A stretch of DNA of 64,000 bases. Origin: Roseibaca calidilacus (GTDB taxonomy: Bacteria; Pseudomonadota; Alphaproteobacteria; Rhodobacterales; Rhodobacteraceae). This document shows, in pieces, positions 1,315 to 64,000 of this stretch; position 1 is the first letter of the stretch, and each line of letters begins with the position of its first letter. Where the stretch lies: NCBI RefSeq assembly GCF_001517585.1, contig NZ_FBYC01000004.1:1116001-1180000 (forward strand). The letters run 5' to 3'. A program made the position numbers and the translations under genes. Below the pieces are notes generated by a model that saw only the letters and a list, made by a program, of their open reading frames with translations, ran no database searches and was not told the origin of the DNA.

Positions 1315-1892
1315 GCGCCACCCCCAAGGCGCAGGTCGCGCCAGCGTTCCAGAAGGCTGCGGATGCCGAAATCCATGTCTTCGGACGCGCCGCCATCGCG
1401 GTTCTCATAGCTTTGCGCGGCCAGCAAAAACACCGCCTGGCGCAGGTCGGCGGGGATGTCGCCCCACATACCGAAGCCCGCTGTGAAGACCACCACCGCC
1501 TGCCCGCCCGTGGGAATAGGCGGCAATATGCTGCCCGTGGGCACAAGGCGCGGGCGCGGGCCATCGGCCTGCAAAGCGTAGCGGGCGGGGTCGATCACGG
1601 TTGCCGCGCCGTCGCGGGTGACGAGCGTTACAGAGGCCACCGCGCTGACCGGAGCCACCGGCAAAACCTGCCCGCAGTCAGTACGCCAACGGGCCAGCCG
1701 CAGCGACATATCACGCGCGATCAGCGCGCGCGCCGTGCGGCCTTCGACCGTGGCAAGGGCCGCGCGCAGATATTGTTCCAGCAGCGCATCTTGCGTGGTG
1801 TCATCGGCAAAGCCGCTGGACAGGCGCAGATGATCGCGAAAGGCGGCAATCGGCAGGGCGGCAAGCGGAATGGGGCTGTCTATCAGGTCCAT
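1311..1892 (-). CDS. GTA gp6-like head-tail connector protein
   Basis: The 193-residue protein belongs to the phiE125 gp8-type head-tail connector family. It has an N-terminal helical DHLRLSSGFADD segment followed by the characteristic ALLEQYLRAALATVEGRTARAL helix, then a beta-rich middle and a C-terminal helix with QSYENRDGG. It forms the ring below the portal. Of two in-frame ATG codons I chose the downstream one (MDLIDS), because it has AGAGG at good spacing. The upstream ATG lacks a ribosome site. It ends in a 4-bp overlap with the closure gene. Confidence 0.82.
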   Translation of the reverse strand: MDLIDSPIPLAALPIAAFRDHLRLSSGFADDTTQDALLEQYLRAALATVEGRTARALIARDMSLRLARWRTDCGQVLPVAPVSAVASVTLVTRDGAATVIDPARYALQADGPRPRLVPTGSILPPIPTGGQAVVVFTAGFGMWGDIPADLRQAVFLLAAQSYENRDGGASEDMDFGIRSLLERWRDLRLGGGA

Positions 1893-2001
1893 GGGGGCCT
1901 CTTGCATGGGAAATGGGTCGGGTGCCCCGCAACCGGGGGACGGGGTGTTACAGGGCACCCTGCCCCGCCGCGACATCCGCGACGGGGATCGCGTATGCGC
2001 C

Positions 2002-3204
2002 TTAGCTCAGGCCGAATTTCAGCAGCTTGATCGCCTTGAAGTCGGACACATCGCCGCCCACGCGCTTGGTCGCGTAGAACAGCACATGGGGCTTGGCGCT
2101 GAACGGGTCGCGCAGGACGCGCATGTCGGGGCGCTCGGCAATGGTGTAGCCCGCGTTGAAATCGCCAAAGGCAATGGCGTAGCTGTCCGACGCGATATCG
2201 GGCATGTCTTCGGCCACCAGCACCGGGTAGCCCATCAGCCGCGCGGGTTCACCAGAGGCCAGACCGTCCGACCACAGGAAGCGGCCATCGGCATCTTTCA
2301 TCTTGCGCACGGCACCGGCGGTTTTCGAGTTCATGACGAAAACCGCGTTGGCGCGGTAGCTGGCCCCCAGCGCATAGACCAGATCCACGATGGAATCGGC
2401 GGCGTTCACGCTTGCGAAATCGCCATCGGCACCGGTGGCGATATAGCCCAGGTTGTCCCATTCCCAAATCGCGTCATCAACCTTTGGGTGGTCCAGAAAG
2501 CCGCGCGGCTTGTCCACGCCGTCGCCATTGATAAAGGCCGCCGCTTCGGCGCGGGCAAATTTGCCCGCAATGCGGTCTGCCAGCCACCCTTCAATATCGA
2601 AGGCGCTGTCATCCAGCAGCCGCTGGCTGGCCTTGGGCATGGCCGACAATTCGTGCAGGCGGATGGAAATTCGGTCAATCGTCGGCGTGTCGGATTCGGC
2701 CAGATTACCCGATTCCGTGGCCCAGCCCGAAGAAATATCAGTATGATCCACCAGCACATCGAAAGAGGAGCTCTCGACCATCACCACCGATGCAATTGCC
2801 CGGATGGACGCCGCGTTATGCAGCACGCCGCGAATGGTCGCAGCCGTGGCCGGGTCCACCAAATAGCCTCCCTCGGCGGCGACAGCGGTGTTCAGCCCCT
2901 TCGCTTCCAGTTGCAGCCCGCGCAAATCGGCCTCGTTGCCGGAGCGCAGATAGGCGTCGAACGCTTTGTGGTGCAGCGTGTCTGCCGCATCAGTGCGGTC
3001 CAGAACAGGGCGGGCGGGGGAAAGGGCAGTCTTGCGGTCCAACATGGTCAATCGCTCTTCGGTTTGGGAAAGTTTACGGGTGAGATCGGCCTGAAACGCG
3101 TCAAACTCGGCGGCAAAGCCGTGCCATGCGGTTTTCAGTTCGGGAGCGTCGGACATCTCGGGCGCAGCGGGCTGGCCCGCCGCCTGTGGCGCGGGTGTGG
3201 TCAT
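2002..3204 (-). CDS. GTA major capsid protein, HK97 family
   Basis: The 400-residue protein is an HK97-fold phage capsid subunit matching g5 of the R. capsulatus GTA. Residues 1 to about 110 form the helical scaffold-like delta region. It contains the heptad-like DLTRKLSQTEERLTML stretch and precedes AAEGGYLVDP, where the mature capsid typically begins after protease trimming. The remainder shows family patterns: FINGDGVDKPRG, a YRANAVFVMN strand, GYPVLVAEDMPD and the GDFNAGYTI segment. It lies directly downstream of the prohead protease, which would remove the N-terminal arm. Confidence 0.93.
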   Translation of the reverse strand: MTTPAPQAAGQPAAPEMSDAPELKTAWHGFAAEFDAFQADLTRKLSQTEERLTMLDRKTALSPARPVLDRTDAADTLHHKAFDAYLRSGNEADLRGLQLEAKGLNTAVAAEGGYLVDPATAATIRGVLHNAASIRAIASVVMVESSSFDVLVDHTDISSGWATESGNLAESDTPTIDRISIRLHELSAMPKASQRLLDDSAFDIEGWLADRIAGKFARAEAAAFINGDGVDKPRGFLDHPKVDDAIWEWDNLGYIATGADGDFASVNAADSIVDLVYALGASYRANAVFVMNSKTAGAVRKMKDADGRFLWSDGLASGEPARLMGYPVLVAEDMPDIASDSYAIAFGDFNAGYTIAERPDMRVLRDPFSAKPHVLFYATKRVGGDVSDFKAIKLLKFGLS

Positions 3205-3311
3205 GGGTCTCTCCTATGACAATCGGTGGATTTCGGGTCTTGAGGGCCAAGCTACCGCCTGCCGCCCAAGATCGGGTGAAAGCAGCGTGCGCTATGTTAA
3301 CCGCGCCGGGG

Positions 3312-3845
3312 CTAAAGCTGTGCCAGCGCCGCCCGTGCAGCCCGCAGCCTGGCGGTCAGCAGCGACAGCTCGTCCAATTCGTCCGACTTGCGGTCAATGC
3401 GCGCGGTGGCCTGCATGGGAAAGGTCACAAGGCTCACTTCCCACAACTCCAGCTCCAGCAGCCGCCGCCCGCCACCGGGCACGGATTCGGCGCGCAAGGT
3501 GCGATAGCCGATGGACAGCCCATCGACCGCCCCCGCCGCCAAAAGCGCCTGCGCTTCGCGCGCGCGGGCCACATCGGGCAGCAGGCGGCCCTTGACGTAT
3601 AGGCCCGTGGCGTCCTCGCGCACCTCGTCCCAAATGCCGATGGGCTGGGCGGGGTCGTGCTGCCACAACATGCGCACCGCGTCACCCTTCGCAGCCAACC
3701 GCGCGAGCGAGGCGGCATAGGCCCCCGCCATCACCGTATCGCCGCCGCGGTCGCGCTGGCCGAAAATGCTGGCATAGCCCGCAATCTCATGGCCTTCCAC
3801 AACCCGCAACCCCGGCGCGGTGCCGGTGAACTTGTATTCCAACAT
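3312..3845 (-). CDS. GTA prohead protease (HK97 family), gp4-like
   Basis: The 177-residue protein fits the HK97 prohead maturation protease family. It has GYASIFGQRDRGGD near the start, a MLWQHDPAQPIG histidine motif, and a DGLSIGYRT serine motif. His and Ser in these positions are the expected catalytic residues. It would cleave the capsid delta domain and itself during head maturation. The chosen start (MLEYKF) has GGAAAGG upstream; an earlier in-frame extension reads into g3.5 and lacks a start signal. The C-terminus, rich in L, A and R, is typical of the family. Confidence 0.88.
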   Translation of the reverse strand: MLEYKFTGTAPGLRVVEGHEIAGYASIFGQRDRGGDTVMAGAYAASLARLAAKGDAVRMLWQHDPAQPIGIWDEVREDATGLYVKGRLLPDVARAREAQALLAAGAVDGLSIGYRTLRAESVPGGGRRLLELELWEVSLVTFPMQATARIDRKSDELDELSLLTARLRAARAALAQL

Positions 3846-3859
3846 GGGCAAACCCTTTC

Positions 3860-4102
3860 CTATGTCGTCAACTGCACCAGCGCCAGCGCGCCATGCAGCA
3901 AAACCCCGGCGGCCACGCCATAGACGGCCAGCCACAAGCGGCGCTCCAGCCGCTCCACGGCTTGCTCCAGCCGCATAATGCGGAATTCCAGCGCTTCCTT
4001 GCGGGCCTCGAACACGCGTTCTTGCGCGTCAATGCGGGCCTGCGCGGCCTCGAAACTGTCATACAGGTAGCGCGAGCCGCCCACTGCGCGGCGCGCGCTC
4101 AT
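3860..4102 (-). CDS. GTA gp3.5-like small membrane protein
   Basis: This 80-residue protein sits between portal and protease, the place of g3.5 in the R. capsulatus GTA. Residues 15 to 55 form a strongly charged amphipathic helix or coiled coil (FEARKEALEFRIMRLEQAVERLERR), and residues 57 to 77 form one transmembrane segment. Its ATG overlaps the portal stop by 4 bp. Its role in particle formation is not known to me. The call rests on position, length and helix-plus-membrane architecture rather than on a domain. Confidence 0.7.
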   Translation of the reverse strand: MSARRAVGGSRYLYDSFEAAQARIDAQERVFEARKEALEFRIMRLEQAVERLERRLWLAVYGVAAGVLLHGALALVQLTT

Positions 4103-5307
4103 TGCTCCTCCAGCCGCGGGGGCAGGCCCAGAAGGGCGCGCTTCTCGGCATCAGTCAGGAAAGACGCCTCGCCCACGCGCCGCCAGTGCTGGTCGCGTTC
4201 CACCGCCAAGGCGGGCACTTGGTCCAGATCGGGGCGCAGGGTCAGATCACCGGGCAGGAAATGCGACATCCAATGCGACAGCGCCGCAGTCACGCGCGTT
4301 GCCATGGGCAGCACCGTCAGCCGGTAGAACGCGCGGTTGGCCTCTTGGTAATTGGCATAGGTCGCATCCCCCGGAATGCCCAGCAACATGGGCGGAATGC
4401 CAAAGGCAATCGCAATCTCGCGCGCCGCCGCCTCCTTGGTTTTCTGGAACTCCATGTCAGAAGGCGAAAAGCCCATCGGTTTCCAATCCAAGCCGCCATC
4501 CAGCAGCATCGGTCGGCCCGCATTGCGCGCGCCGATGTGATGGGCCTCCATCTCGGCTTGCAGGCGGTCATATTGGTCCTGCGTCAGGCTGCCATGGCCA
4601 TCCACGCCGCGATAGACAATCGCACCCGTGGGCCGCGCGGCATTGTCCAGCAACCCTTTCGACCAGTTGGAGGCCGCGTTATGCACATCGACAGCCCGGC
4701 TGGCCGCTTCCAACGGCGACAACCCGTAATGGTCGTCTTGCGGGTGAAAGGACCGGATATGGCAGATCGGCCCCACACCGTCTTGCATGGCAAACCGGTG
4801 CGCCCGTCCGCCGACGCGGTATTCATAGGCCACAGGCCAGCCGTCAGCCCCGGGGACAACCCGCATCCGGTCCGCGCGCAGAATGTGCAATTCCTGCACC
4901 CCGCCCAAGGCATCTGGCACGGCTTCCACATAGGCATTGCCCGTCAGCAAAAGCTGGCCATACAAAGCCTCCAGCAACTCGGCCCGCCCCTGCCCCGGAT
5001 TGGGCCGCGCCAGCAGGTCCAGAAACGGGTGGCGCTCGTAGCGGGCCTCGGCATCTTGCAACACCAAGGGCAAAGCGGCGGCGGCCTCGGCAATCAGGCG
5101 CACGGCGCGAAAGCCCACCGGGTTGCCAATGAACCCGGCCCGCGCCAGCGACACGCCATCGCGCATCTGGCCCACCGCGCCCACGGCTTCGGGCAAGCGC
5201 GCCCCCAGCCGCCCGGCCATCAGCGGGCCAACGGCGCTGGCCTTGGCCTCTTCCACCGGACGGGCCGCTGTTTCGGGCGCACGCCCCTTGCGCAGGAATT
5301 CGAACAT
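4099..5307 (-). CDS. GTA portal protein, HK97 family
   Basis: The 402-residue protein is an HK97-type phage portal, the dodecameric channel through which DNA enters the capsid, equivalent to g3 of the R. capsulatus GTA. Seen in the sequence are the portal signatures ERHPFLDLLARPNPGQ, LLTGNAYVEAVPD, HIRSFHPQDDHYGLSPLEAA and the stem/clip-like EAAAREIAIAFGIPPMLLGI. I chose the ATG at MFEFLRKG, preceded by GGAGAGGCGG, over an ATG 28 codons upstream that would run into the repeat element between this gene and the terminase. It overlaps g3.5 by 4 bp. Confidence 0.92.
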   Translation of the reverse strand: MFEFLRKGRAPETAARPVEEAKASAVGPLMAGRLGARLPEAVGAVGQMRDGVSLARAGFIGNPVGFRAVRLIAEAAAALPLVLQDAEARYERHPFLDLLARPNPGQGRAELLEALYGQLLLTGNAYVEAVPDALGGVQELHILRADRMRVVPGADGWPVAYEYRVGGRAHRFAMQDGVGPICHIRSFHPQDDHYGLSPLEAASRAVDVHNAASNWSKGLLDNAARPTGAIVYRGVDGHGSLTQDQYDRLQAEMEAHHIGARNAGRPMLLDGGLDWKPMGFSPSDMEFQKTKEAAAREIAIAFGIPPMLLGIPGDATYANYQEANRAFYRLTVLPMATRVTAALSHWMSHFLPGDLTLRPDLDQVPALAVERDQHWRRVGEASFLTDAEKRALLGLPPRLEEQ

Positions 5308-5331
5308 ATCCGCCTCTCCAAAACCTGCCCC

Positions 5332-5392
5332 CTTCATCCTTGCAAAAATATCCTCGGGGGGCGCGGGGGGCAGACAGCCCCCCGCCTGCATG
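5332..5392 (-). repeat. Three-copy 3'-end element, copy 1 (between GTA terminase and portal)
   Basis: On the plus strand this reads TTCATCCTTGCAAAAATATCC followed by a G-run and a perfect 9-bp hairpin (GCGGGGGGC, loop AGACA, GCCCCCCGC at 5363-5385). The same AT-rich core occurs near 22217 and 63736. Read as minus-strand RNA, it begins about 35 nt after the terminase stop, forms the GC hairpin, then runs into GGATATTTTTGCAAGGATGAA. That resembles an intrinsic terminator or attenuator placed between g2 and g3 of the GTA operon. From memory, very similar sequences are common in Rhodobacterales intergenic regions. Confidence 0.75.
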
Positions 5393-5426
5393 GATCAAAC
5401 CCTAACGAAAGGATATGAACGCGGCG

Positions 5427-6734
5427 CTAGCCCAGCGTGCGCAGCTTGGGCTGCGACCAACGCGCGGCAGGGGCAAGCATCAGCTCATGCAAGGCCCAGA
5501 CCAGCGCATCCACCCGGTCGGGGCTGCCGGTGCCGGTGAACCCTTGCGCGGTCATCAGCCCCATCTGGTCCTCCAATTCGCGCAAGGGCGCGGCATGGAA
5601 CACCCGGCCTTGCTCATACAAAGCCGCCACAGGCTCCGCCCGCACCGCCTTGCCCCGCGCGGCGTGAACGGCACGGTAGGGGACCAGCGGGTCCACCTGC
5701 CGCAGCACCTCGCCCACAAGGTTGCCGCCTTGGTTCACCTCGGCCACGATGCGGTCGGCGCCATGGCGGCGCGCGGCGTCTATGGCCGCCTGCGCCCAAG
5801 CCGTGGGCGAAGAGGCGCGCAAGGATGCATCCTCCAGCACATAAGCGCGCCAGTCGGCGGGCGGCCCTTCTGCCCACACGCCGGCAACGACAATCCCGCA
5901 CAGGTCCGATTTCGCGCCAGAGGACACCGCCGGGTCCACCGCAACCACCACGCGGCTTAGCCCCGGCACATCGCGCACCCGCGCGCGCGCCAGCAGTTCC
6001 AGCGGCCAAAGCGTGCCCTCGGCATCGGCCACAAGTGCGCCGTCCAACTCCTGCCGTTCCAGATGCGTGCCCGCATAGCGCGCACGAATTTCCGCCAGAA
6101 AGGACGGGGCCAGCCACGCGCGGTTCGCTTCGGTTGCGGCATGGGTCATCACCGTCGATGGCGCGGCAAGGATTGCTTTCAACGTGTCTTGGTTGCGCGG
6201 CGTGGTCGTGACCAATTGGCGCGGATGCGTGCCCAGCCGCAACGCGAATTGCAGCATGTCCCATGTCTCTTCTGCGCGCGGCCATTTCGCCAATTCGTCG
6301 CACCATGCCGCGTCGAATTGCGGACCGCGCAGTGCCTCTGGGTCCGACGCGCTGAAGCATTGCGCCACCGCCCCGTTGGGCCAGACCAAACGGCGGCGTG
6401 TCGCTTCCCATTGCGGCAGGCGGTCGGGGGGCGAACAGGCCAGAATGCCGCTATCGCCGAAGACCATCACCTCGCGCGCTTGGTCATAGGTTTCGGCCAC
6501 CAATGCCACGCGGCGCGCGGTACCAGCATCCAACGGCCTCGCCCCCTCAACCATGTTGCGCACCCATTCAGCACCCGCGCGAGTCTTGCCTGCGCCGCGC
6601 CCGCCAAGGCAGACCCATGTGCGCCAGTCGCCCGCAGGGGGCACTTGGTGCGGGGCGGCCCAGAACGAAAACAGCCAAGGCAAGCTGGCCAAAGCGTTCT
6701 CACTCAGGCTGTCCAGAAACGCCGCCCTCTCCAT
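5427..6734 (-). CDS. GTA large terminase subunit, gp2-like
   Basis: The 435-residue protein is a phage-type large terminase, the ATPase-nuclease that packages DNA into heads. In the GTA it packages host DNA. Walker A is GGRGAGKT at about residues 44-51 and Walker B is AAWCDE at about 142-147. The coupling motif TTTPR lies near 176-180. The nuclease domain shows VVAVDPA with the first catalytic Asp near 267, and DRVDALVWAL at the C-terminus. The start (MERAAFLD) overlaps the end of g1 by 35 bp and has only a weak ribosome site, so an upstream start is possible. The first 40 residues are less certain. Confidence 0.92.
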   Translation of the reverse strand: MERAAFLDSLSENALASLPWLFSFWAAPHQVPPAGDWRTWVCLGGRGAGKTRAGAEWVRNMVEGARPLDAGTARRVALVAETYDQAREVMVFGDSGILACSPPDRLPQWEATRRRLVWPNGAVAQCFSASDPEALRGPQFDAAWCDELAKWPRAEETWDMLQFALRLGTHPRQLVTTTPRNQDTLKAILAAPSTVMTHAATEANRAWLAPSFLAEIRARYAGTHLERQELDGALVADAEGTLWPLELLARARVRDVPGLSRVVVAVDPAVSSGAKSDLCGIVVAGVWAEGPPADWRAYVLEDASLRASSPTAWAQAAIDAARRHGADRIVAEVNQGGNLVGEVLRQVDPLVPYRAVHAARGKAVRAEPVAALYEQGRVFHAAPLRELEDQMGLMTAQGFTGTGSPDRVDALVWALHELMLAPAARWSQPKLRTLG

Positions 6735-21025: not shown

Positions 21026-22201
21026 TCACGTCGCAGCGCGGATCGCCGTCTCGAACTCGGAACACAGCATCCCAATATCTTCCACCCCGACCGACACCCG
21101 GAAGAACCCTTCCGAGATACCAAGCGCCGCGCGCCCCTCGGGCCCCAGCGCCCGGTGCGAAGAACTGGCCGGATGCGACAGTGTTGTGCCGATATCCCCC
21201 AAGGTGGGCGCAAAGGCGATGTTTGGCGCGGCCTGCGTCAGCCGGTTGGCCGCCGCGCGCCCGCCGCCAATCTCGAAACTAACCATATGGCCGCCGCGCG
21301 CGCCCAGCAGCGCCACGGCCCGGTTATGGTCGGGGTGGTCAGGGCGCGTGGGGTATAGCACACGGCTTACCCCCGGCAGGCCCGCGATATGATCGGCCAA
21401 GGCTGCCGCATTCGCCTCGGCCCGGTCATAGCGCAGCTCGAATGAATAGAGCCCCCGCTCGGCCAGCCAGCAATCGAAGGGGCTGGGGGTAAAGCCCACG
21501 GTCACGGCGAAATCGTAAATCGCTTTGCGATGGCTCGCGTCGCGGGCGGCAACATAGCCCAAGGTCGCGTCCGAATGCCCGGCCAGCATCTTCGTGACCG
21601 AATGCACGACAATATCCGCGCCATGGTCAAACGGGCGGTAGCCGCGCGGCGTGGTAAAGGTATTGTCCACCACCACCAGCACGCCCCGCGCCTGCGCCCC
21701 GTCGATAATCGCCGCCAAATCCGCCACGCGCAGCGTGGGGTTCGACACCACCTCTAGCAGGATCAGCTTCGTTTCAGGCCGGAGCGCTGCCAGAAAGGCC
21801 GCCGCATCGGTCGGATCGGCCAGCGATGTCGCCACGCCCAGACGCGGCAGATCCTCGCGCATAAGCCGCAAGGACCGCCCGTAGAGCTGGTCGCCCCCCA
21901 GCACATGATCGCCCGCGCGCGTCAGCCCCATCAGCACCGCCGCGACCGCCGCCATGCCGGACCCCAGCACGACCCCCCCTGTCGCCCCTTCCATCTGGTC
22001 AATCTTGCGGGCCAACACATCGGCATTGGGGTGCCCCTCGCGCGCATAGGTATACCCCTGCGCGCGGCCCTCGTATTGGGCATCCAGCGTGTCGGGGTCG
22101 GGAGAGGCATACACCACCGAAGGCTGGATCGGTGTTCCCACAGCCCGCGATACGCTTTCAGGCCAACCCATCCGCCGCACCAGGCTCTCATGCTCACTCA
22201 T
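21026..22201 (-). CDS. PLP-dependent Cys/Met metabolism enzyme (cystathionine gamma-synthase family)
   Basis: The 391-residue fold-type I PLP enzyme of the trans-sulfuration family has the PLP lysine in HSVTKMLAGHSD, at about residue 204. YTYAREGHPN near 50, GSGMAAVAAVL near 80, VVSNPTLRVAD and SSHRALGPEGR near the C-terminus all fit. It could be a cystathionine gamma-synthase, beta-lyase or methionine gamma-lyase; sequence reading alone does not separate them. Two ATG codons lie 6 bp apart; the second is preferred because AGGGAG is then properly spaced. Confidence 0.88.
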   Translation of the reverse strand: MSEHESLVRRMGWPESVSRAVGTPIQPSVVYASPDPDTLDAQYEGRAQGYTYAREGHPNADVLARKIDQMEGATGGVVLGSGMAAVAAVLMGLTRAGDHVLGGDQLYGRSLRLMREDLPRLGVATSLADPTDAAAFLAALRPETKLILLEVVSNPTLRVADLAAIIDGAQARGVLVVVDNTFTTPRGYRPFDHGADIVVHSVTKMLAGHSDATLGYVAARDASHRKAIYDFAVTVGFTPSPFDCWLAERGLYSFELRYDRAEANAAALADHIAGLPGVSRVLYPTRPDHPDHNRAVALLGARGGHMVSFEIGGGRAAANRLTQAAPNIAFAPTLGDIGTTLSHPASSSHRALGPEGRAALGISEGFFRVSVGVEDIGMLCSEFETAIRAAT

Positions 22202-22216
22202 CACCATCTCCCTTGT

Positions 22217-22282
22217 TTCATCCTTGCCTAAATATCCTGGGGGAGTTGCGCGGCACGCGCAACGGGGGCAAAGCCCCCGCGC
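22217..22282 (-). repeat. Three-copy 3'-end element, copy 2 (downstream of dNTPase gene)
   Basis: The core TTCATCCTTGCCTAAATATCC is followed by GGGGGAG, then a perfect 8-bp hairpin GTTGCGCG-GCA-CGCGCAAC (22245-22263), then CGGGGGC-AAA-GCCCCCG (22263-22279). Further G/C hairpins continue to the dNTPase stop at 22335. In minus-strand RNA it follows the dNTPase stop by about 50 nt and ends in AT-rich GGATATTT. This suggests a transcript 3'-end or processing structure. Confidence 0.75.
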
Positions 22283-22334: not shown

Positions 22335-23510
22335 TTACCGATCAGGCGCCCCAACCAGCCGCGCGTGTTCCTGAATGGCAAAACGGTCGGTCATCCCCGA
22401 CACATAATCCGCCACGATCCGCGCCAGCGCCGTCTCATCGGCGGCCTGCGCCACATCCAGCCGCCATTCCGCCGGCAACAGGTCGGGCCGCGCCATGAAC
22501 AAAGGGAACAACTCCTCGACCATGGCGGTCACCTTGGCGCGCATTTCGACCACGCTGGGCGCACGATACATGCGGGTGAACAGGAACTGCCGGATCACCT
22601 TCAATTCGCGGAACAGGCGGTCGGAAAACCGGATAATCGTCAGCCCCAGATCGCGGATATCCTGCGCCGAGCGCAGATCCGCCGGTCCCAGCCGCGTGCC
22701 TGCCACCAGCAGCACATCCTCGACCATCACCCCGAACACGCGGCGCAGCGCCTCATGGCGGCGGCGCATCACCTCCAGCCCCGGATAAAGCCGGTCAACC
22801 TCGGCAAAGGCCGGGCCGGTGATCGGCAGGTCCATCAGGTCAGCTTCGGTAAACAGGCCCGACCGCAAACCATCGTGCAAATCATGGTGGTTATAGGCGA
22901 TGTCATCGGCAATGGCGGCGACCTGTGCTTCGGCGCTGGCATAGCCCGACAATTCCAGATCGAAGGCTGCATTGCATTCGGCCAGCGCATAGGGCAGCAC
23001 CCCGTCTTTCAGCGGCGCGCCTGCGGCATCCGTCACCGGGCCGTTATGCTTGGCGATCCCTTCCAGCGTTTCCCATGTCAGGTTCAGCCCGTCGAAATCG
23101 GCGTAATGGCGTTCCAGTTTGGTCACGATGCGCAGGGCTTGAGCGTTGTGGTCAAAGCCGCCATAGGGGGCCATCAATGCGCAGAGCGCGTCCTCGCCCG
23201 TATGGCCAAAGGGCGGGTGGCCCAGATCATGCGCCAGCGCAATGGCTTCGGCCAGATCGGTGTTCAGCCCCAAGGCGGAGGCCAGCGTGCGCGCGACCTG
23301 TGCCACTTCTATCGAATGGGTCAGGCGGGTGCGGTAATAGTCGCCCTCATGTTCGATGAACACTTGTGTCTTGTGCTTCAGCCGCCGGAACGCGCTGGAA
23401 TGGATAATCCGGTCGCGGTCGCGTTGAAAGGGCGAGCGGAAGGTGCTCATCGCTTCCGCGTGCGCGCGGCCCCGCGACTGGTCGGGCTGGGTGGCATAGG
23501 GTTTGAGCAT
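22335..23510 (-). CDS. dGTPase-like deoxynucleotide triphosphohydrolase (HD domain)
   Basis: The 391-residue HD-superfamily protein is of the dGTPase-like type that removes triphosphate from deoxynucleotides. HD motifs seen are RLTHSIEVAQVAR near residue 65, AHDLGHPPFGHTGE near 98, and a later DDIAYNHHDLHDGL segment. An N-terminal STFRSPFQRDRDRIIHSSAFRRLKHKTQVF is diagnostic of the family. The start is preceded by GGAG. It is divergent from erpA, an arrangement I recall as common in alphaproteobacteria. Substrate range is unknown. Confidence 0.93.
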   Translation of the reverse strand: MLKPYATQPDQSRGRAHAEAMSTFRSPFQRDRDRIIHSSAFRRLKHKTQVFIEHEGDYYRTRLTHSIEVAQVARTLASALGLNTDLAEAIALAHDLGHPPFGHTGEDALCALMAPYGGFDHNAQALRIVTKLERHYADFDGLNLTWETLEGIAKHNGPVTDAAGAPLKDGVLPYALAECNAAFDLELSGYASAEAQVAAIADDIAYNHHDLHDGLRSGLFTEADLMDLPITGPAFAEVDRLYPGLEVMRRRHEALRRVFGVMVEDVLLVAGTRLGPADLRSAQDIRDLGLTIIRFSDRLFRELKVIRQFLFTRMYRAPSVVEMRAKVTAMVEELFPLFMARPDLLPAEWRLDVAQAADETALARIVADYVSGMTDRFAIQEHARLVGAPDR

Positions 23511-62776: not shown

Positions 62777-63583
62777 ATGACCGACCAGACCCCCGTTGCC
62801 AAGGCAACCCCTACCCTGCCCGATGCGCAAACCGTCACCTCGGTCACGCATTATACCGACCGGCTGTTCGCGTTTCGCTGCACCCGTCCGCAAAGCCTGC
62901 GGTTCCGCTCGGGCGAATTCGTGATGATCGGGCTTCTGGGCGACAATGGCAAACCGCTGCTGCGCGCCTATTCCATCGCCTCGCCCTCATGGGACGAAGA
63001 GTTGGAATTCTACTCCATCAAGGTGCCTGATGGTCCGCTGACCTCGCGGCTGCAACATATTCAGCCGGGCGATCCGATCATACTGCGCCCCAAACCTGTC
63101 GGCACGCTGGTCATCGACGCGCTGTTGCCCGGAAAGCGGCTGTGGATGCTGGCCACGGGTACGGGCATCGCGCCCTTTGCCTCGCTCTTGCGCGATCCCG
63201 AAACATGGGAAAAATTCGAGCAGGTCATCGTCATGCATACCTGCCGCGAGGCGGCAGAGCTAACCTATGGCCGCACCCTTGTTGAGGCCCTGCCCAATGA
63301 TCCGCTGATTGGCGAGCTGGTCGCGGACAAGCTGCTTTACTACCCCACCACCACGCGCGAGCCGAGCGCGCAGATGGGCCGCATTACCGACAATATGGCC
63401 TCTGGCAAAGTCTTTGCCGATCTGGGCATCCCGCCGCTGGACCCAAGCATTGACCGCGCCATGGTCTGCGGCTCTCTGGCCTTCAATCTGGATATCAAGA
63501 AGGTGCTTGAAGCTGCGGGCCTGTCCGAAGGTGCCAATAGCGCGCCTGCGGAATATGTCGTCGAAAAGGCGTTCGTGGACTAG
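62777..63583 (+). CDS. fpr: Ferredoxin/flavodoxin-NADP reductase
   Basis: The 268-residue FAD enzyme passes electrons between NADPH and ferredoxin or flavodoxin. FAD binding: LLRAYSIASPSWDEELEFYSIKV, with RxYS at about residues 65-68, and GPLTSRLQHI. NADP binding: LWMLATGTGIAPFASLL, VMHTCREAAELTYG, and AMVCGSLAFNLDIKKVLEAAG. The C-terminus ends YVVEKAFVD, the extended bacterial FPR tail seen in Rhodobacter FPR. The stop codon TAG is also the first base-triplet of a palindromic repeat. Confidence 0.95.
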   Translation: MTDQTPVAKATPTLPDAQTVTSVTHYTDRLFAFRCTRPQSLRFRSGEFVMIGLLGDNGKPLLRAYSIASPSWDEELEFYSIKVPDGPLTSRLQHIQPGDPIILRPKPVGTLVIDALLPGKRLWMLATGTGIAPFASLLRDPETWEKFEQVIVMHTCREAAELTYGRTLVEALPNDPLIGELVADKLLYYPTTTREPSAQMGRITDNMASGKVFADLGIPPLDPSIDRAMVCGSLAFNLDIKKVLEAAGLSEGANSAPAEYVVEKAFVD

Positions 63584-63735: not shown

Positions 63736-63800
63736 TTCATCCTTGCAAAAATATCCCGGGGGAGTCGCGCGTGAACCGCGCGACGGGGGCAGCGCCCCCA
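63736..63800 (-). repeat. Three-copy 3'-end element, copy 3
   Basis: The core TTCATCCTTGCAAAAATATCC is followed by CGGGGGAG, then hairpin GTCGCGCG-TGAAC-CGCGCGAC (63764-63784), then GGGGGC-AGC-GCCCCC (63785-63799). Relative to copy 2 the first stem has T-A replaced by C-G at its second-from-outer pair region, keeping full pairing. It begins about 52 nt 3' of the stop of the partial minus-strand gene. Confidence 0.75.
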
Positions 63801-63851: not shown

Positions 63852-64000
63852 TCAGGTGCGGAACCTGTTTTGGGGCCGGAACCCCGTATCGACCGCCTCA
63901 CGCGGGTCACGCACCCAGACCGTCCGGTTCGGGTGCAGCCCCGCACCGCGCACTGCCGGAACGGCCATGTGCCGCGCGCGCTGCAACAATCGGCTTTCGG
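63852..64000 (-). CDS. 3' end of an unidentified gene running off the right edge
   Basis: The last 48 codons of a minus-strand frame read ...ESRLLQRARHMAVPAVRGAG, then LHPNRTVWVRDPREAVDTGF and end RPQNRFRT. The balanced composition, unlike the R/G/H-rich chance frames here, looks like real protein. The three-copy 3'-end element follows its stop at the distance seen for the other two copies. I do not recognise the family. A short version starting at the internal ATG (about 38 residues) cannot be excluded. Confidence 0.5.
   Translation of the reverse strand, partial: ESRLLQRARHMAVPAVRGAGLHPNRTVWVRDPREAVDTGFRPQNRFRT

Follow-up and report, generated by a model that had tools for sequence, protein, structure and literature searches.

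Three copies of a two-part element in the window

The window analysed here is a stretch of 64,000 nucleotides from Roseibaca calidilacus (contig NZ_FBYC01000004.1, positions 1,116,001 to 1,180,000), and three copies of a repeated element lie on its minus strand. Each consists of a 21-bp core and a hairpin module directly 5' of it, the module ending in one to three bases, here called x', that stand just before the core. The copies and their neighbouring genes are as follows.

4099-5307, minus strand: GTA-type phage portal protein gene (PF04860), after copy 1, start 25 nt past the core
5333-5353, minus strand: core of copy 1, 21 nt, GGATATTTTTGCAAGGATGAA
5354-5385, minus strand: hairpin module of copy 1, GC-G6-C-TGTCT-G-C6-GC / G / C6 / x'=GA
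5427-6734, minus strand: GTA-type terminase large subunit gene (PF03237, PF17289), before copy 1
21026-22207, minus strand: Cys/Met metabolism PLP enzyme gene (PF01053), after copy 2, start 9 nt past the core
22217-22237, minus strand: core of copy 2, GGATATTTAGGCAAGGATGAA
22238-22278, minus strand: hairpin module of copy 2, G5-C-TTT-G-C5, hairpin 2 GTTGCGCG/CGCGCAAC, third run C5, x'=A
22335-23510, minus strand: HD-domain phosphohydrolase (dGTPase-like) gene (PF01966, PF13286), before copy 2
62777-63583, plus strand: NAD-binding oxidoreductase (ferredoxin-NADP reductase-like) gene (PF00175), convergent to copy 3
63736-63756, minus strand: core of copy 3, GGATATTTTTGCAAGGATGAA
63757-63799, minus strand: hairpin module of copy 3, G5-C-GCT-G-C5, hairpin 2 GTCGCGCG/CGCGCGAC, third run C5, x'=G
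63852-64000, minus strand: dihydroxy-acid dehydratase family gene (PF00920, PF24877), before copy 3; its 3' end alone is inside the window, and the remainder was read in locus L016

An earlier sequence-only reading had pointed out these three copies, their G-run/C-run hairpin and a second hairpin shared by copies 2 and 3, and all of this stood: dinucleotide shuffles of the window give an expectation of zero for the core pattern, and the compensatory change that distinguishes the second hairpins is statistically backed on the larger sets described below. The hairpins start about 41-56 nt after the upstream stop codon, near the 35-55 nt that had been claimed. The statement that the copies always lie just 3' of a gene is incomplete or misleading: copies 1 and 2 can as well be described as lying directly upstream of the following gene, and copy 3 lies between convergent genes. 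Three features go beyond that reading, namely a third C-run that matches the G-run in length, a complementarity between loop and tail, and the fact that the core, not the hairpin, is the invariant part. In copy 1, which has no hairpin 2, the loop bases TC pair with the tail GA; in copy 2 the x' A complements the middle T of the loop, and in copy 3 the x' G complements the middle C. The covariance models of Rfam 15 gave no match in the window at the gathering score, and a terminator and promoter scan found no such site at the three copies. The terminase and portal genes flanking copy 1 (4099-6734) show the same layout in Roseibaca relatives. Viral carriage was considered and rejected, with 4 of 2.9 million viral contigs concerned, three of which (L345-L347) bear a module of the copy 1 type.

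Conservation of the core and rules of the hairpin module

Across the whole 3.35-Mb genome the core GGATATTTNNGCAAGGATGAA has 36 exact matches and three with one mismatch, while reversed-pattern controls have none in the same genome; relatives hold similar numbers. Matches with two mismatches include three decaying copies (L038-L040), in which the hairpins are damaged too. The pattern is bipartite, G(GA/AG)TATTT and NNR followed by a 5-nt "dialect" and A(T/A)GAA. The genus member G179 has orthologous copies at 36 of the 39 loci, with unchanged orientation and a flank identity of 74-92% (8-26% different). At these 36 loci the 18 positions 1-8 and 12-21 show one change in 648, whereas 25 of 72 bases at the NN positions have changed and about 32% of the 15 nt next to the core differ. 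Split by gene context, there are 0 changes in 180 for antisense copies, 0 in 216 for sense copies and 1 in 252 for convergent copies. Since antisense copies are constrained like sense copies, the action of the core is not confined to the transcript of the adjacent gene. The sequence-only reading had preferred function over neutral repeat DNA, and core conservation together with significant covariation strongly supports this.

The typical module reads Gn-C-loop-G-Cn, an optional hairpin 2, a third run Cn, and x'. The G-run and the third C-run are equally long in 34 of the 35 parsed copies of the genome (the shuffled mean is 14.4, and none of 2000 shuffles reaches this value) and in 212 of 252 parsed copies from all genomes. 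Moreover, x' is the reverse complement of the loop base or bases of hairpin 1. Among three-base loops, the middle base and x' are T and A in 18 copies of the genome and C and G in eight, with one other combination (G-G; Fisher p = 6e-7); over all genomes the figures are 77 T-A and 56 C-G against five exceptions. Loops of other lengths obey the same rule (TGTCT/GA, TTCAC/GTG, TTTGC/GCA, AC/GT, TGCC/GC, CC/TGG). So does a short form, GCCTYCGGCGR, with its linker nearly absent; a simple pseudoknot does not account for this.

Hairpin 2 was assessed in ungapped classes of equal length that were picked by the analyst, so that no alignment program shaped its structure. A class of 14 sequences has 96.2% of its cells paired (84.9 when shuffled) and a covariation of 0.297 (0.097), higher than in any shuffled or slid version, and a class of ten has 100% paired with a covariation of 0.287 (0.078). 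The 155 parsed copies together contain more than 1,100 Watson-Crick pairs in this hairpin, compared with two G-U pairs when it is read on the core strand and 22 when it is read on the opposite strand; visual inspection puts most of these 22 at a single outer position. This scarcity of G-U pairs in the stems is independent of gene orientation. Identical hairpin cassettes recur at several loci, so copying between loci occurs too, also contributes to uniformity, and may account for part of the stem covariation. Compensatory changes confined to a single locus (L028/L202, L037/L201) imply that cassette replacement is not the source of all of it.

The module is optional, in that the core persists with or without a hairpin at the orthologous pairs L004/L304 and L163/L330. 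Hairpin-less cores at G308 loci such as L330, and at L313 of G219, usually have TTT before them. A triplex by mirror symmetry was tried and put aside. The sole impure stem (L185 and its orthologues) can be accounted for just as well by the CT usually found ahead of the third run, which leaves the equality of run lengths as the remaining argument for a triplex.

Dialects, distribution and gene context

Positions 12-16 of the core are near-uniform within a genome and different between species. The dialect is CAAGG in R. calidilacus, CGACA in 42 of 42 copies of G177, CCAGA in 40 of 40 of G051 and GAACG in 11 of 11 of G290; within the genus, CAAAG is found in 40 of 40 copies of G295, CCAGA in 27 of 27 of G312 and, among the copies listed, GAGTATTT..GCAAG in G308. 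Two or more dialects occur in each of G111 (AACAG plus some CGAAG), G010 and G219, the last with three tail spellings in one genome. When copies were grouped as orthologous by their flanks, 33 of 63 groups held more than one spelling. Two of these differ by single deviant copies only, which leaves 31 of the 63 in which one place and orientation carries different recurrent dialects. A tag that is fixed within a genome but switched in place between species suggests a cellular factor that reads it in DNA.

With a relaxed pattern, 82 of 149 genomes of the family Rhodobacteraceae have at least ten copies (controls have at most five), and most carriers have 20-175 per genome. About 45% of the sampled family genomes have fewer than ten, and the element is therefore dispensable at the family level. 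G316, a genus member assembled in six contigs and 100% complete, is essentially element-free; its sole plausible copy (L329) lies directly past a T-tract hairpin. Replicons of Paracoccus pantotrophus and P. denitrificans hold the hairpin module with further tail spellings, in records without annotation there. The one hairpin form searched outside the family had no match in 187 sampled alphaproteobacterial genomes, and a supposed wider alphaproteobacterial family of GGGGCnnTGCCCCnGACCCC modules was likewise not found among them. A literature search of mainly open-access scope returned no description of the core sequence or the element.

The element is extragenic, occurs in either orientation and is practically never found within genes. 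For the 42 copies of the genome (two mismatches allowed, genes from a codon-usage gene caller), 17 lie in sense between co-directional genes, 15 between convergent genes, ten antisense between co-directional genes and none between divergent genes, and the uniform orientation toward the preceding gene that the three window copies had suggested thus fails genome-wide. Over all genomes the corresponding figures are 109, 102, 69 and 5 of 285; with orthologues counted, these are not independent observations. Of the 109 sense copies, 61 have the following start codon no more than 30 nt from the core, and 44 of the 69 antisense copies have the stop codon no more than 15 nt from it. Copies with named neighbours lie between leuC/leuD and bchN/bchB (both antisense), bchH/bchL (sense), an iscR-like gene and a cysteine desulfurase gene, cobO/cobQ, and the GTA-type terminase and portal genes around copy 1. 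Gene pairs such as leuC-leuD and bchN-bchB are co-transcribed in operons of this kind.

Paired arrangements were also seen. The cobO-cobQ gap of R. calidilacus (L012, C4:945903 and 946069) holds a convergent pair of elements with about 150 nt between them, one being the short GCCTCCGGCGG form, and the locus is kept in most sampled genomes (orthologues L041, L053, L058, L134, L138, L153). In G111 (e.g. L214, L219) there are many inverted half-element pairs about 61 nt apart, with GCCTCCGGCGG on one side and CGCTCCGCGGG on the other, that could form one larger hairpin, and in G219 (e.g. C18:470683/470713) convergent core pairs are just 7-19 nt apart. At L002 and L003, the element has a classical intrinsic terminator (AAAAAAGGCGGGC..GCCCGCCTTTTT) immediately upstream, and ordinary terminators are therefore also in use in this genome.

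Readings of the element and comparison with known systems

The element is best read, and in our judgement probably so, as a REP-like extragenic DNA mark that is recognised by a putative co-evolving factor. Observed for the mark are its conservation, covariation, loop-tail and run-length rules, uniformity within a genome, dialect switching in place and extragenic position in either orientation; to these the reading adds a protein as presumed reader, and DNA rather than RNA as what would be read. Independence of orientation, absence from promoter regions and genes, near-perfect, wobble-free palindromes and a co-evolving tag point to DNA recognition by a trans factor; the case for DNA over RNA is drawn from orientation, operon position and the scarcity of wobble pairs only. 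Each copy would be a dispersed mark of two abutting modules. A trans-acting factor with sequence specificity would recognise the 21-bp core, and this specificity presumably changed repeatedly in Rhodobacteraceae. The optional palindromic module, composed of hairpin 1, an optional hairpin 2, the equal-length third C-run and the one to three bases pairing with the loop of hairpin 1, would fold when the strands open, with the loop docking on its own tail and the third run placed alongside the stem in a pseudoknot- or triplex-like manner. The loop-tail pair and the equal third run would then be a requirement of a hairpin whose 3' tail runs along the stem and is docked on the loop, and the folded module would present the edge of the core to the factor in a fixed geometry. 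The benefit to the cell may lie in chromosome organisation or topology, in DNA exchange, or in the upkeep of a REP-like repeat population. More tentatively, and with doubts that outweigh our confidence, we propose that this is a previously undescribed Rhodobacteraceae DNA recognition system: a rapidly re-specifying factor, a 21-bp mark at extragenic sites that number 20-175 in each carrier genome, assistance by a folded single-strand hairpin with loop-tail pairing of a pseudoknot- or triplex-like kind, and a genome-wide rewrite of the marks in place after each change of specificity.

Extragenic palindromes in co-directional and convergent gaps, the inverted pairs of G111, identical cassettes at several loci, and the gain and loss of copies between species and of hairpins at orthologous sites would all suit a REP- or MITE-like selfish element, in which palindrome and tail are mobilised or copied between sites by a putative single-strand transposase or gene conversion, with dialects that change along with the enzyme. 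We consider this rather unlikely, given that a Y1/RAYT transposase (PF01797) has no match in the genome and none above the cut-off in at least 20 of 24 genus genomes, that 36 of 39 copies sit at positions conserved with another species, that the tail is invariant though stems vary among copies, and that in-place dialect switching is unexpected under transposition. Neutral repeats kept similar by gene conversion alone could share cassettes between loci, but this explanation is already disfavoured by the conservation test, which finds one change in 648 in the core while adjoining bases are about 30% different; unique compensatory stems at single loci and the joint loss of core and hairpin in the decayed copies also speak against it, and we regard it as highly improbable.

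The RNA 3'-end structure proposed by the sequence-only reading, whether an intrinsic or factor-assisted terminator or an mRNA-stabilising or processing hairpin that uses the core as its cleavage site or as a determinant further downstream, would agree with stable hairpins past stop codons, with an AU-rich ATATTT 3' of the structure and with a mild sense excess among co-directional copies (109 versus 69 antisense loci, orthologues included). It did not hold up, and we rejected it as a terminator or 3'-end RNA: antisense copies are as conserved as sense copies, no T-tract follows the stem, the terminator scan was empty at the window copies, G-U pairs are nearly missing from the stems (two on the core strand), cores exist that have no hairpin (L304, L330), and copies sit between adjacent co-directional genes of one pathway, about half of the co-directional copies being too close to the following start codon for a promoter to fit in between. 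We now think this origin improbable. A similarly low probability is given to a mark for natural transformation or DNA transfer, by which fragments of the right dialect would be preferentially acquired, driving near-identity wherever tolerated. Dialects, several of them in one genome, inverted pairs and independence of orientation resemble the DNA uptake sequences (DUS) of Neisseriaceae (PMC3630211), and gene transfer agents occur in the family (PMC9836097), but copies are far fewer than the 1500-3700 of DUS and practically never intragenic, unlike DUS, and the loop-tail and run-length rules would be left unexplained. On the other strand, ATATCCTG presumably resembles relaxase nic sites or the T-DNA border; this likeness was dropped because other dialects have GAGTATTT.

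The DNA mark that we favour shares with REP, REPIN and BIME sequences, which are GTAG-tagged and RAYT-associated (PMC3116915, PMC3733652), the form of short extragenic palindromes with an invariant tag, placed in co-directional or convergent gaps singly or in inverted pairs (as in G111) and in species-specific versions. It differs from them in its 21-nt bipartite tail, in positions conserved between species and in the switching of tail dialects in place; for its loop-tail complementarity and equal run lengths we found no description. By eye, no printed copy has GTAG or a variant at the foot of the hairpin, the invariant part being the 3' 21-mer, and membership in the REPIN/RAYT system was rejected as PF01797 is absent from the genome. 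Alphaproteobacterial CGTC-tagged REPs are likewise palindromes without a dedicated transposase, but they have a CGTC tag and an 8-9 bp stem with AT pairs at the first positions (PMC3733652); stems and tag differ here, and CGTC/GACG is absent from the three window copies. That study does not mention Rhodobacter, Paracoccus or Roseobacter. With intrinsic terminators the element shares a GC-rich hairpin close to stop codons, and it differs in having no U-tract directly past the stem, in lying between adjacent co-directional genes and in occurring in both orientations rather than in sense at the ends of transcription units, with 10 of 42 copies antisense. Hairpins of this type should not be annotated as terminators.

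Like Neisseriaceae DUS, which are about 12 nt long and often intragenic (PMC3630211), the element is an over-represented short motif whose dialect is constant inside one genome and changes from species to species; both have a conserved core, inverted pairs and sometimes two dialects per genome. It is set apart by its 21-bp length, its folded module, its extragenic position and its lower copy number, with 39 copies in 3.35 Mb and practically none in genes. When a motif hardly varies inside a genome yet changes its spelling at those very loci in sister species, this implies that one factor and dozens of sites have co-evolved strongly, as is known for these uptake sequences. The element is thus REP-like in genomic distribution and uptake-sequence-like in its dialects, yet it departs from both in their defining traits, and it is found across Rhodobacteraceae, laboratory genera like Paracoccus among them, with an overall make-up that matches none of REPs, uptake sequences and terminators.
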